NCBI GenBank assembly: GCA_030529235.1
Contig: JAUMXF010000005.1
Span: 1 to 46,134 of the forward strand
From: Pseudomonadota bacterium
GTDB taxonomy: Bacteria; Desulfobacterota; Desulfovibrionia; Desulfovibrionales; Desulfomicrobiaceae
Direction of reading: 5' to 3'
Length of the DNA stretch: 46,134 nucleotides
The translations under genes and the position numbers were made by a program. The notes beneath the pieces are model-generated. The model ran no database searches, was not told the DNA's origin, and worked only from the letters and a program-made list of their open reading frames with translations. Below, piece by piece: positions 21,449-35,580 of this stretch (position 1 is its first letter; every line of letters begins with the position of its first letter).

Positions 21449-22251
21449 CGGCCGTCCTCTCCGTTGCAGGCGAAAAAACGGCGGGCGTTGGCCGCCGTGT
21501 ACCGGGCCAGTTCCTTGGGATCCTCGCCGCGCAGACCGGCCAGGGTTTCCACCACGAGAGGCAGGTAGGCCGGTTCGTTGCGCTCGAAAGGTACGCCGGG
21601 CGGCGCGATGGCCGGACTGTCGGATTCCACCAGCAGACGGCCGGGCGAGATGCGTATGCAGGCCGTGCGGGCCTTGCGGTTGGCCGGGCGGGTGATGGAC
21701 GCGCACACGGAAATGTGAAAGCCGAGCTTTTCGAATACCGGAACCATCTCGTGGGAACCGGCATAGGCGTGGAGCATCATGCGCGGCGGCCGCTCGGGCA
21801 TGTCCCGGATCAGGTCCGCCAGACGGCCGAAGGCCTTGCGGCAGTGGATGCTCACGGGGCGGGCGTATTTTGCGGCCAGGGCCATCTGGGCCAGGAATAC
21901 GCGCTCCTGTTCGGCGTCGTTGCGTTCGGGCAGGGCGTTGTCCAGACCGATTTCCCCCACGGCCACGGGATGCGCGGCCACCAGTTCCTCCAGACGGTCC
22001 AGCCAGTGCGGCGAACGTCCGCCCACATACCACGGATGCAGGCCCAGGGAGACATGCACGTCCTTGTGGGTGCGGCCAAGGCCGAGCACATAGTCCCAGT
22101 CGTCCTCGCCGGTGCCGTTGCAGCACATCAGGGCCACTCCGGCCGCTCTGGCCCGGATCAGGGCCGGAGCCAGACCGTGGCGCAGAAAGCCGTCCTGCAG
22201 ATGGCAGTGCGCGTCCACAAGACCGGCATACATCCCGTTGTCCGGGTTCAT
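21445..22251 (-). CDS. TatD-family metal-dependent hydrolase (DNase)
   Basis: TIM-barrel metallohydrolase, 268 residues, of the TatD/YcfH group, whose members act as 3'-5' exonucleases or D-aminoacyl-tRNA-like hydrolases. The metal ligands are visible: DAHCHL near the start, GEIGLD in the middle, SIHCRKAFG, MLHAY and the final VESDSPAI. The usual GLDY is GLDN here. The ATG at 22251 is divergent from the sirtuin gene, with 72 bases between the starts. It shares an operon with tcdA through an ATGA overlap. The substrate is not predicted. Confidence 0.92.
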   Translation of the reverse strand: MNPDNGMYAGLVDAHCHLQDGFLRHGLAPALIRARAAGVALMCCNGTGEDDWDYVLGLGRTHKDVHVSLGLHPWYVGGRSPHWLDRLEELVAAHPVAVGEIGLDNALPERNDAEQERVFLAQMALAAKYARPVSIHCRKAFGRLADLIRDMPERPPRMMLHAYAGSHEMVPVFEKLGFHISVCASITRPANRKARTACIRISPGRLLVESDSPAIAPPGVPFERNEPAYLPLVVETLAGLRGEDPKELARYTAANARRFFACNGEDGR

Positions 22252-22323
22252 GAAAACTCCGTTGTTTTTCCTTTTGCCGCGCGGTTCCGGTCTGTGCTAC
22301 CCCAGTCGGAAAGAGGGAACGCC

Positions 22324-23016
22324 ATGGAAAGAAAACATGTTGTGGCTCTGACCGGGGCGGGCATCAGCGCCGAGAGCGGCCTGTCCACTTTCCGGGATGA
22401 AGACGGCCTGTGGAGCAAATTCCGCGTGGAAGACGTGGCCACACCCCAGGCCTTTGCCCGCAATCCCGGCCGGGTGCTCGAATTTTACAATCAGCGCCGG
22501 CGTCAGTTGCGGGATGCCGCTCCCAACGCGGCCCATACGGCCCTTGCCCGGCTGGAGCAAGGGTACAGGGTGAGCATTGTCACCCAGAACGTGGACGACC
22601 TGCACGAAAGGGCCGGGTCGTCCAGCATTCTGCATCTGCACGGACAGCTCAGGTTGGCGTGCAGCACGCTGGACCCGGACTACGTGGTGGACATCGGCTA
22701 CGAGCCCATCGCTCTGGGCGATCTTTGCCCCGGAGGCGGACAGCTGCGTCCGGCCATCGTCTGGTTCGGCGAACCCGTGCCCATGATGGACCGCGCCCGC
22801 GAGATCGTGGCTTCGGCGGATGTGCTCATGGTCATCGGAACGTCTCTGGCCGTGTACCCGGCTGCCTTTCTGGCCCACGAGGCGCCGTCCGGCGCGTCCG
22901 TTCTGGTTGTCGATCCGAAAGCCGAACCCGGCCGGGTGGCCGGTGCCGTGGTCCATCGGGAAAAGGCCGCCCGGTGCGTGCCCCGGTTGGTGGAAGAACT
23001 GCTGCAAAAGAGGTGA
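22324..23016 (+). CDS. cobB: Sirtuin-type NAD-dependent protein deacylase, zinc-less
   Basis: Removes acyl groups from lysines using NAD+. The 230 residues show the NAD site (GAGISAESGLSTFRDEDGLW), QNVDDLHERAG and the catalytic His in HLHG (residue 106). Tyr55 and Arg58 (FYNQR) match the Y-x-x-R pair that gives SIRT5 and E. coli CobB desuccinylase activity. The four-cysteine zinc site is absent: only two cysteines lie in that region, which reads DIGYEPIALGDLCPGGGQLRP. That wording, together with FRDEDGLW, resembles Bacteroidetes sirtuins, so transfer is possible. The start (ATG 22324) is chosen where likeness begins. A tiny membrane ORF follows after three bases. Confidence 0.9.
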   Translation: MERKHVVALTGAGISAESGLSTFRDEDGLWSKFRVEDVATPQAFARNPGRVLEFYNQRRRQLRDAAPNAAHTALARLEQGYRVSIVTQNVDDLHERAGSSSILHLHGQLRLACSTLDPDYVVDIGYEPIALGDLCPGGGQLRPAIVWFGEPVPMMDRAREIVASADVLMVIGTSLAVYPAAFLAHEAPSGASVLVVDPKAEPGRVAGAVVHREKAARCVPRLVEELLQKR

Positions 23017-32859: not shown

Positions 32860-32901
32860 GAGCGGATGTCCCGGCGTTTTGGAAGATGCGGCGTTCTGTC
32901 C

Positions 32902-32939
32902 GGCCGGAGGCGGTATTTCCCGGATAGGCCGGAGGCGGT
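32902..32939 (+). repeat. 13-base tandem direct repeat carrying a duplicated ribosome-binding site
   Basis: GGCCGGAGGCGGT occurs at 32902-32914 and again at 32927-32939. Each copy includes GGAGG. Only the second is close enough to the methyltransferase GTG (32945) to act in translation. It may reflect a small duplication. Confidence 0.6.
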
Positions 32940-32944
32940 CCGCC

Positions 32945-33622
32945 GTGGAGAATAACGCGCCGGAAAAAAGCTTCCAGCGGCTGCGGGTTCAGGCCGCCGG
33001 GCGGAGCTGGAGTCTGGCGCGTCCGGCGGATCTGGAGTCCCTCTGGCAGGAAATGGATGACAGCGCCCCCGGGGCCGAAGACAATATCCCCTACTGGGTG
33101 GAGCTGTGGCCCGCGACCGTGGCCCTGTGCGGCTGGCTGGCCGGGCGGGATCTGTCCGGCCGGACCTGTCTGGACCTGGGCTGCGGCCTGGGCCTGTCCG
33201 CCCTGGCAGCGTCCATGCGCGGCGCGCACGTGGTGGGTATGGATCACCAGCACGAGGCGCTTTGCTTTGCGGCCCTGAACGCACGGGAAAACGCGGCGCC
33301 TTCGCCGCTGTGGATCTGCGCCGACTGGAACCGTCCGGCCCTTGCCGCGGGAGTCTTCGATCATATCTGGGGCGGAGATGTCTTCTACGAGCAGCGTTTT
33401 TTCGAGCCGCTGGAGAAACTGCTGCTGCGCTGCCTGAAACCCGATGGCCGGGCCTGGTTCGCGGATCCGGAACGGACCGTTTCCCGCGATGTCTGGAGCA
33501 GGTTCGCCCGCAGGGGCTGGAAAGTGGTGGACCGGGGGCACGAACGGGTGCCCTCGGATCAGACCGCCGTGGCCGTCACCCTCTGGGAGCTGTCCCGGCC
33601 CCGCCTTCGGCCCTCAGCCTGA
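32945..33622 (+). CDS. Class I SAM-dependent methyltransferase (methyltransf_16-like)
   Basis: A 225-residue methyltransferase. Motif I is CLDLGCGLGLSALAAS, preceded by IPYWVELWPATVALCGWLAG, an arrangement typical of the METTL/lysine-methyltransferase-like family 16. The acidic motif II is VVGMDHQHEAL and a later GGDVFYEQRFFEPLEKLL stands at motif IV. The substrate is unknown; relatives methylate protein lysines or small amines. The start is a GTG with GGAGG nine bases upstream; the frame is open further to 32879 without family likeness. It follows the ABC operon by 85 bases and precedes nikR by 67. Confidence 0.85.
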   Translation: MENNAPEKSFQRLRVQAAGRSWSLARPADLESLWQEMDDSAPGAEDNIPYWVELWPATVALCGWLAGRDLSGRTCLDLGCGLGLSALAASMRGAHVVGMDHQHEALCFAALNARENAAPSPLWICADWNRPALAAGVFDHIWGGDVFYEQRFFEPLEKLLLRCLKPDGRAWFADPERTVSRDVWSRFARRGWKVVDRGHERVPSDQTAVAVTLWELSRPRLRPSA

Positions 33623-33689: not shown

Positions 33690-34109
33690 ATGGGGGAAAC
33701 AATACGCTTCGGAGTATCGCTGGATTCGGATCTGCTGGAGAAATTCGACGCCCTGTGCGAGGAGCGTTGCTACCAGACCCGGTCCGAAGCCATCCGCGAC
33801 CTCATCCGTAACGCCCTGGTGCAGAAGGAATGGGAGAATCCCGGCAAGGAGATGGTCGGCACCCTGACTCTGGTCTATGACCATCACCAGTCGGATCTGG
33901 CCCAGAAAATAACCGAAATCCAGCATGCCGCCCTGGATGTCATCGTCACGTCCCTGCATATCCATCTGGATCACCACAACTGCCTGGAAGTGCTGGTTTT
34001 GCGCGGCCCGGGCGAGACCATAAAAGCCACGGCCGAGCGCCTCATGTCCACCAAGGGAGTCAAGCACGGCAAGGTCAGTCTGGCCACCACCGGGCAGGAT
34101 CTGTCCTGA
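33690..34109 (+). CDS. nikR: Nickel-responsive regulator NikR
   Basis: Ribbon-helix-helix repressor with a nickel-binding ACT domain, 139 residues. The DNA-binding strand is [16 protein letters not shown]. The square-planar nickel ligands are all present: His79, His90, His92 and Cys98 ([10 protein letters not shown]). GCAAGGAGG lies just upstream of the ATG. The stop overlaps the folE2 ATG by one base (TGATG). Likely targets are nickel uptake or hydrogenase genes; hypAB lie about 5 kb downstream in this window. No clear NikR palindrome (GTATGA-N16-TCATAC) was seen here. Confidence 0.96.
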
Positions 34110-34882
34110 TGCGCGATGTACAGAGCGGCCCGGCCGACGTTCCCCTGCGCATCGACCGCGTGGGCGTGAAAAGCCTGAGCATTCCCCTGACCGTGCGCGA
34201 CAGGGCCAGGGGAGAGCAGCGGACCGTGGCCCGCGTGGATCTGAGCGTGGACCTTCCGTCCCGGTTCAAGGGCACGCACATGAGCCGCTTTCTGGAAGCC
34301 CTGCGGGATATGGACAAGACTCTGGATATATCCAGCTGCGCCCGCTTGCTGCACGACTTGCGGGACCGGCTGCAGGCGCGCAGCGCGCACCTGTGCTTCC
34401 AGTTCTCCTACTTTCTGGAGCACCGGGCCCCGGCCACGGGAATTCCCGCCCTTGTGGACTACGCCTGCTTTTTGCGGGGCACCATGCGGGATGCGGAGGC
34501 GGAGCTGGCCCTGGGCGTGGAGGTACCGGTCATGACCGTGTGCCCCTGCTCCAAGGCCATTTCCCGCGAGGGCGCGCACAGCCAGCGGGCCATGGTCCGC
34601 ATGGAGGCCGGATGCTCCGGCATGCTCTGGCTGGAAGATCTCATCGACATCGGCCGGGAATCGGGCTCTTCGCCGGTGTATGCCCTGCTCAAGCGCGAGG
34701 ATGAAAAGTTCGTGACCGAGGCGGCTTTTGCGGCTCCGGCCTTCGTGGAGGATGTGGTCAGAAACGCGGCCGCCCGGCTGGCCGCGCATCCCAGAGTCCG
34801 GGGGTTCCGGGTGGAAGTTGAGTCGATGGAATCCATCCACAATCACAGCGCCTATGCCTGCATTGATCAGATGGATGGATAG
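34109..34882 (+). CDS. folE2: GTP cyclohydrolase FolE2 (type IB)
   Basis: Converts GTP to dihydroneopterin triphosphate, the first step of folate and queuosine-type pathways, without strict need for zinc. The 257 residues carry family landmarks: [29 protein letters not shown], the active-site [17 protein letters not shown] and [13 protein letters not shown] at the end. The ATG overlaps the nikR stop (TGATG) and nothing else separates them, so the two are translated together. FolE2 is the metal-flexible form and is often placed under zinc control; coupling to a nickel regulator is uncommon. Confidence 0.95.
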
Positions 34883-35037
34883 GCCGCCGCGGGCAGGCGG
34901 GAAATTTTGTCTGAATGGCGGGCGGAAGCCTTTTCCGTTTCCGGGATGAATAATGGAATGCCGGTGCCATGCTGCGTGTTTGACGGGATGGATAAGCAAC
35001 GAGTAGGAAAACTGGTATTGAACCAGCGGAGGTCCTC

Positions 35038-35580
35038 ATGACGCCGAACATTCAGGCTCTGCATGCCGTGGGCATGGCCCAGCGGGTTTCGGCCAACAAC
35101 GTGGCCAATGTGAACACCGACGGATTTCTGCCCAGCCGGGTGGATTTTGAAACCGGTCCCGACGGTGAGGGTGTGCGCGTGCAGCGCATTGTGCGGGAAG
35201 GCGCGCATGAAGCACAGCGGCGGGAGCGCCGCCGTGAGGCTTTGCGTCGCGAGGAAAGGGAAGAACGCCGTCTGGAAGAGGAAACGGCCGCTGGCCGCCG
35301 CGTGCGGGAACGCCATGCGGAAGAAGGTCTGCGTCGGGCCGGAGAAAACCGCAGGCGGGAAGAGGGTCTTCGCGCCGAGGACGAGCGCATCCGCCGGGCC
35401 GACGAAGCCTATTTTGCGGAGAAAGCCCTCCAGGAGGAATGGCTGGCCGAAGCTTCGGCCACGGACCTGGCCGCGGAAATGGTCCGGATGATCGAAAACG
35501 AACAGGTTTTCGCGGCTAATGCCGCCGCCTTGCACACGCAGATGAACATGCAGGGTGTGTTGATCGATACCCTGGTGTAG
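35038..35580 (+). CDS. Flagellar rod-like protein with Arg/Glu-rich central helix
   Basis: The 180-residue protein has flagellar axial-protein ends. Residues 1-40 (NIQALHAVGMAQRVSANNVANVNTDGF) carry the rod/hook SANNxANVxTxGF motif. Residues 139-180 (TDLAAEMVRMIENEQVFAANAAALHTQMN) match the C-terminal D0 helix. Between them, instead of the usual beta domain, lie about 85 residues dominated by Arg and Glu (for example RRERRREALRREEREERRLE), predicted to form one long charged helix. Six bases before the ATG is GGAGG. No other flagellar gene is near. FlgC-like rod proteins are about 140-150 residues, so this is a related but unusual form; export by the flagellar apparatus is inferred. Confidence 0.75.
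   Translation: MTPNIQALHAVGMAQRVSANNVANVNTDGFLPSRVDFETGPDGEGVRVQRIVREGAHEAQRRERRREALRREEREERRLEEETAAGRRVRERHAEEGLRRAGENRRREEGLRAEDERIRRADEAYFAEKALQEEWLAEASATDLAAEMVRMIENEQVFAANAAALHTQMNMQGVLIDTLV

Follow-up and report, generated by a model that had tools for sequence, protein, structure and literature searches.

The closest described counterparts of the protein analyzed here are axial components of the bacterial flagellum, above all FlgC, which is represented by the TIGR01395 model and by the Salmonella structures 7cg0 and 7bin. The likeness to FlgC lies in size, in ends of the FlgEFG type and, in a short homologue, in end helices that flank a small beta region. However, the family falls below the FlgC cut-off, is encoded by its own gene away from the FlgC gene of the genome and, in the protein under study, has an Arg/Glu helix at the site where a hairpin would be. 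The axial proteins FlgF, FlgG and FlgE (TIGR03506) share the N- and C-terminal motifs of this protein, which in contrast possesses no D1 domain. The helix can be compared with the single alpha-helix (SAH) domains portrayed in the excerpted text of PMC5347031: Arg/Glu richness, opposite charges three or four residues apart and the absence of a hydrophobic seam are common to both and the 86 residues fall within the 40–200 residue range of SAH domains, but five glycines, an Arg:Lys ratio of 24:1 and attachment to an axial protein set the segment apart. Designed Arg-only or Arg-rich single helices aggregated according to the same excerpt (PMC5347031).

A further counterpart is found in Desulfovibrio vulgaris. 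A table entry gives the DVU2893 product as 'Flagellar basal-body rod protein' and supplies this name without a function (excerpt of PMC3114432). The adjacent number, DVU2894, denotes an FlrA/FleQ-like activator that is co-expressed with flagellar genes, carries the motif GAFTHA and is devoid of an N-terminal domain such that it perhaps needs a partner protein (PMC4641369, in part). Evolution of D. vulgaris in syntrophic lines selected for loss-of-function mutations in DVU2894, as stated in an excerpt of PMC8319347. DVU2893 and DVU2894 are likely orthologues of the rod-like gene described below and of a sigma-54 activator gene that accompanies it in some relatives, an assignment drawn from names, adjacent numbers and one motif and not from comparison of the sequences. 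DVU2956 was considered as the linked regulator and was set aside because the papers on it concern another regulator.

The rod-like gene and its surroundings

The window, which is the entire 46,134-nucleotide stretch of Desulfovibrionales DNA that was analyzed, includes an ORF on the forward strand at positions 35038–35580 that commences with ATG and specifies 180 residues plus a stop codon. The Shine-Dalgarno sequence GGAGGT (35028–35033, forward strand) that precedes the ORF is also present ahead of the homologues of the genus in an alignment of 13 upstream regions. The same alignment revealed a TTGACG element (34980–34985, forward strand), a weak candidate for a −35 box, that is common to most copies in the genus. 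Sigma-54 and sigma-28 promoter patterns were not found in the 158 bases between positions 34883 and 35040. Nor was an FlrA-type repeat patterned on the excerpt of PMC4641369 found in these 158 bases.

The ribosome-binding site, the Pfam matches at the ends and purifying selection on both ends establish that the ORF is a real gene, and it is the sole copy of the family in this genome. It did not arise by chance since a 93% identical copy occurs in a second genome (G005) and the ends align in 12 further genomes of the genus. An origin as a frameshift or annotation artifact was rejected because the ends and center are read in one frame and the product has the same length in both genomes with the 180-residue form. 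The preliminary description had allowed that homologues with a normal D1 domain might expose the central segment as a local frameshift; the relatives that were recovered are without D1. A decaying orphan gene was ruled out by the purifying selection on both ends.

Three genes upstream on the same strand are conserved neighbors: folE2, for a GTP cyclohydrolase (34109–34882; PF02649), nikR (33690–34109; PF08753) and a SAM methyltransferase gene whose start codon is uncertain (32879–33622; PF08241, PF10294). In 106 family loci, FolE2 is encoded upstream in at least 77 (same strand), NikR in at least 76 and the SAM methyltransferase in at least 61, the counts being lower bounds because the flanks mostly extended 1.5–2 kb. 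The methyltransferase also matches the lysine methyltransferase family Methyltransf_16 in Pfam. The isolation of the gene from other flagellar genes, which had been remarked upon at the outset, was borne out: a Pfam scan of the 26 window ORFs uncovered no further flagellar domain and, among seven Flg_bbr_C matches in the genome, that of the rod-like protein is the only one on the window contig.

Two additional observations concern gene order and another ORF. In Sulfurimonas and Sulfuricurvum (L041, L054 around 6000) a 101-residue homologue is located directly 3′ of a conserved gene which we take, by eye, to be dapD, and a flagellar operon was not found in the flanks read around these homologues. 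Elsewhere in the window, the ORF at 21715–23016 encodes 433 residues and has a Sir2 domain (E = 3.8e-41) as its second half; the ~210 residues before this domain received no Pfam assignment at 1e-6.

Family assignment, distribution and fold

The ends of the protein are of the axial flagellar type, as first proposed. The Flg_bb_rod match at residues 14–30 scored 22.4 bits (cut-off 20.7) and the Flg_bbr_C match at residues 138–176 scored 26.0 bits (cut-off 23), both therefore exceeding the Pfam thresholds. The protein matched many rod and hook models in an NCBIfam scan, all below the cut-off among the matches listed (25 of 29), including FlgB (TIGR01396; 28.7 bits, cut-off 59.05) and FlgE/F/G (TIGR03506; 37.4 bits, cut-off 70.25). 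No match of the ORF to the FlgC model TIGR01395 (cut-off 102.1 bits) was detected at E ≤ 0.001, and the short homologues L035 and L037 attained 26.2 and 34.1 bits, respectively, with this model, compared to 161.1 bits for the canonical FlgC that the same genome encodes on another contig (C125). A profile built from 15 homologues matched structures of FlgG, FlgC and FlgE.

Within the genus the gene is present in 14 of 16 genomes, and completeness is 63 and 88% for the two genomes that gave no match. Of the 14 copies, 12 specify 116–123 residues with the same ends and without the charged segment, the position of which is occupied in these homologues by 22–29 residues; the 180-residue form is confined to the genome of the window and G005. 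The homologue L035 resides on a contig that matches G014 and was counted once. Across the order, the 15-row profile produced full-length or near-full-length matches in 104 of 150 genomes (E ≤ 3.2e-18), the two 180-residue forms appearing as split matches, and weaker hits in longer frames resembled hook and other axial proteins. When a FliG_C match at E < 1e-30 was used to define flagellate genomes (133 of the 150), 104 of these flagellate genomes and none of the other 17 possessed a family member (Fisher P = 1.6e-10, phylogeny ignored), with a single weak match (8.7e-6) in one of the latter, G108. The co-occurrence with flagella on which the initial proposal had been staked thus is evident. 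Among the 29 flagellate genomes without a full-length match are each of the ten members listed for genus g26, and therefore the protein is not required for flagella everywhere.

The 106 members that were extracted comprise these 104 plus the divergent copies from G052 and G130, the last of which is cut by a contig end. When this truncated copy and both 180-residue forms are excluded, 103 complete relatives range from 101 to 138 residues. Total lengths were used in this survey as the linker is not delimitable in some rows; L162 (G028), which by eye we took to be an ordinary FlgC, was dropped, and L161, cut by a contig end, is outside the length range. The lengths of the relatives imply that the family is without a FlgG-type D1 domain and that the Arg/Glu segment reflects the alteration of a variable linker in one clade. 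Thus, whereas the charged segment described initially is real, the suggestion that it replaces an expected central beta domain is valid solely in comparison with FlgE/F/G and is not supported for a family that has no D1. Sulfurimonas and Nitrospira records also hold relatives at roughly 30–60% identity. These proteins appear to form a second FlgC-like family that is conserved in the Desulfovibrionales outside flagellar operons and has relatives in Campylobacterota and Nitrospirota.

An AlphaFold model of L035, a homologue of 123 residues, was generated with a 15-row alignment (mean pLDDT 84, pTM 0.66) and consists of a helix at residues 2–23, four strands within residues 33–81 that make two small beta-hairpins, and a helix at residues 87–122. 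The best Foldseek matches of this model in the PDB were proximal-rod chains of Salmonella (7cg0, E = 5e-8, TM 0.81). VIA-align superimposed 114 residues on 7cg0_h with a Z of 14.5 and an rmsd of 2.4; the first 17 rows were all flagellar chains, and other rod and hook chains were tied at Z values of 13–15. Entry 7cg0 and chain 7bin_V, the sequence of which also is in 7cg0, bear the FlgC name. The ties indicate that the L035 fold is of the axial type in general, with FlgC nearest in size.

The Arg/Glu-rich segment

The 180-residue protein can be divided into three parts. Residues 1–52 (35038–35193, forward strand) comprise the N-terminal axial helix (3–23), the ANNVANVNT motif and a beta-hairpin (33–50), residues 53–138 (35194–35451, forward strand) constitute the Arg/Glu-rich segment, a predicted helix that is not in other homologues, and residues 139–180 (35452–35577, forward strand) form the C-terminal axial helix of Flg_bbr_C type. 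AlphaFold predicted a helix at 3–23, strands at 33–40 and 43–50 and a single helix at 54–179, with pLDDT values of 94–98 in blocks between residues 61 and 130, 95–98 over most of the charged part, and a pTM of 0.44. The model thus retains the first hairpin, whereas helix appears to take the place of the second. Its alignment with rod and hook chains was concentrated in residues 1–54 (Z up to 5.7) and Foldseek returned no match for it at E ≤ 0.001. The restriction of the alignment to this region and the pTM of 0.44 mean that paired end helices are not reproduced.

The end helices pair in an assembled axial protein, and both ends of the charged segment should then lie close together, an arrangement with which a straight helix of 126 residues would be hard to reconcile. 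A helical hairpin with a turn near Gly97–Gly102 would be one way to pair the end helices.

The segment is 59% charged, with 24 Arg, 24 Glu, two Asp and one Lys for a net charge of −1, and includes five glycines and no proline. The excess of opposite over like charge pairs at i+3 and i+4 gave a score of 20 compared to a shuffle mean of 1.1 (P = 0.007). Taken singly, base-to-acid pairs at i+3 were the one class of four with a P below 0.05 (P = 0.017), the i+4 counts not being significant individually (P = 0.28 and 0.12). Acidic and basic residues both had their greatest power at period 7 among those tried. The hydrophobic moment was not significant in residues 55–108 (P = 0.28) or 109–138 (P = 0.41), leaving an amphipathic helical hairpin or coiled coil conceivable but unsupported. 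The high Glu/Arg content, opposite charges at i+3/i+4 and lack of a hydrophobic seam that characterize SAH domain sequences thus are all present, and the charge spacing fits a single alpha-helix. These data, together with the predicted helix at 54–179, uphold the earlier description of a spacer like a single alpha-helix. A tandem-repeat origin was not detected by Tandem Repeats Finder; direct repeats at a spacing of 84–87 nt were weak and the best self-offset of the protein had a P of 0.051.

Comparison of the two long forms revealed a dN/dS of 0.06 for residues 1–52, 0.72 for residues 53–138 and 0.02 for residues 139–180. The segment has 11 replacement and 5 silent changes, compared to 2 replacement and 16 silent changes for the ends (Fisher P = 0.001). 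The length of the segment is identical at 4.5% DNA divergence and none of its 26 acidic residues is altered (P = 0.014, post hoc). These figures represent small numbers from one genome pair. The glycines, the excess of Arg and a substitution pattern close to neutral are more in keeping with a spacer that is tolerated than with an exact ruler. Linkers elsewhere in the family differ in character: in another genus of the order (L128:1980–2354 and L133:1986–2360) the linker is a short, helical-looking Ala/Glu/Arg/Gln stretch, apparently an independent move from hairpin to helix.

Possible roles of the protein and its arm

The interpretation that we favor, with a probability of approximately 0.55, is that the gene specifies a minor rod-like axial protein which is FlgC-sized, additional to canonical FlgC and, in one clade, equipped with a charged helical arm. 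Export most likely would proceed through the flagellar type III apparatus, and the protein may become part of the rod or rod-hook region, or cap it, by pairing of its N- and C-terminal helices. The surface beta-hairpin that lies between the ends would, in this clade, have given way to about 86 Arg/Glu-rich residues that may form a largely monomeric, salt-bridged helix and thereby a solvent-exposed, semi-rigid arm. As the identity of the arm residues seems to be loosely constrained, any action of the arm would depend on its length, helicity and charge. The points against placement in the rod are that no NCBIfam cut-off is reached among the matches listed, that the gene lies outside any flagellar operon, that flagellate genomes without a full-length match exist (29 of 133), that the model of the 180-residue form lacks paired end helices and that the upstream region yielded no flagellar-type promoter. 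The five glycines, the aggregation of designed Arg-only helices and the non-significant i+4 counts speak against the helical arm.

The surplus of replacement changes in the segment also would be expected if it were a low-complexity stretch that expanded neutrally in a surface loop tolerant of additions, without function of its own, while the remainder of the protein acts as its relatives do. The variable length and character of the loop in the family, exemplified by the short charged linkers of L128 and L133, agree with such drift, but the retention of exact length despite the DNA divergence, the lack of a helix-breaking proline and the unchanged acidic residues do not, and an arm without function is judged unlikely. 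The constancy of the acidic residues instead would suit a helix that operates as a periplasmic strut, ruler or adaptor between the rod and another part of the envelope, as would its confident prediction in the model and the ~12.9 nm that 86 helical residues would span. Nevertheless, a rod subunit's end helices should share a starting place such that a straight helix could not rejoin its partner, and the segment is restricted to two genomes in the length survey and evolves almost neutrally (dN/dS 0.72), for which reasons the ruler raised in the preliminary description is not supported. A periplasmic strut or ruler thus is possible but unsupported, and we consider it distinctly improbable.

A different role is conceivable in which the rod-like protein partners an FlrA/FleQ-like sigma-54 activator and is retained in the cytoplasm pending the opening of the flagellar export gate, thereby coupling regulation to export. 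At least 23 of the 106 family loci encode, downstream and on the same strand, a sigma-54 activator >60% identical to the copy at locus L037, and the activators of five loci that were read possess GAFTHA (two) or GAFTSA (three), which recalls the motif of DVU2894 (PMC4641369, in part); the rod-protein name of its numerical neighbor DVU2893 points the same way (excerpt of PMC3114432). In the window, however, a response-regulator/TPR gene and not an activator gene comes next, the flanks read of Sulfurimonas and Nitrospira homologues contain no activator neighbor, and the D. vulgaris orthology does not derive from the sequences. A regulatory partnership accordingly is doubtful. With regard to the rod-like axial protein that is preferred here, a bolder and rather speculative extension is that a second FlgC-like protein encoded beside folE2 is a missing rod part or checkpoint and that one clade gained an arm of ~13 nm, either straight or bent into a helical hairpin, that alters contact between rod and envelope.

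The open-access literature provided no recognizable description of an orphan FlgC-like family or of a flagellar single-helix rod protein. Should the family prove to be a genuine component of the rod, it would be a widespread part of the flagellum that lies below every curated NCBIfam cut-off that it matched, among the matches listed, and for which no function is reported in the open-access literature that was found. The conserved, uncharacterized rod-like family is more notable than its charged-helix variant. The long variant in turn offers an example of a single helix replacing a beta-hairpin, and a natural test of the loop bulk that is tolerated through the export channel and on the surface of the rod.
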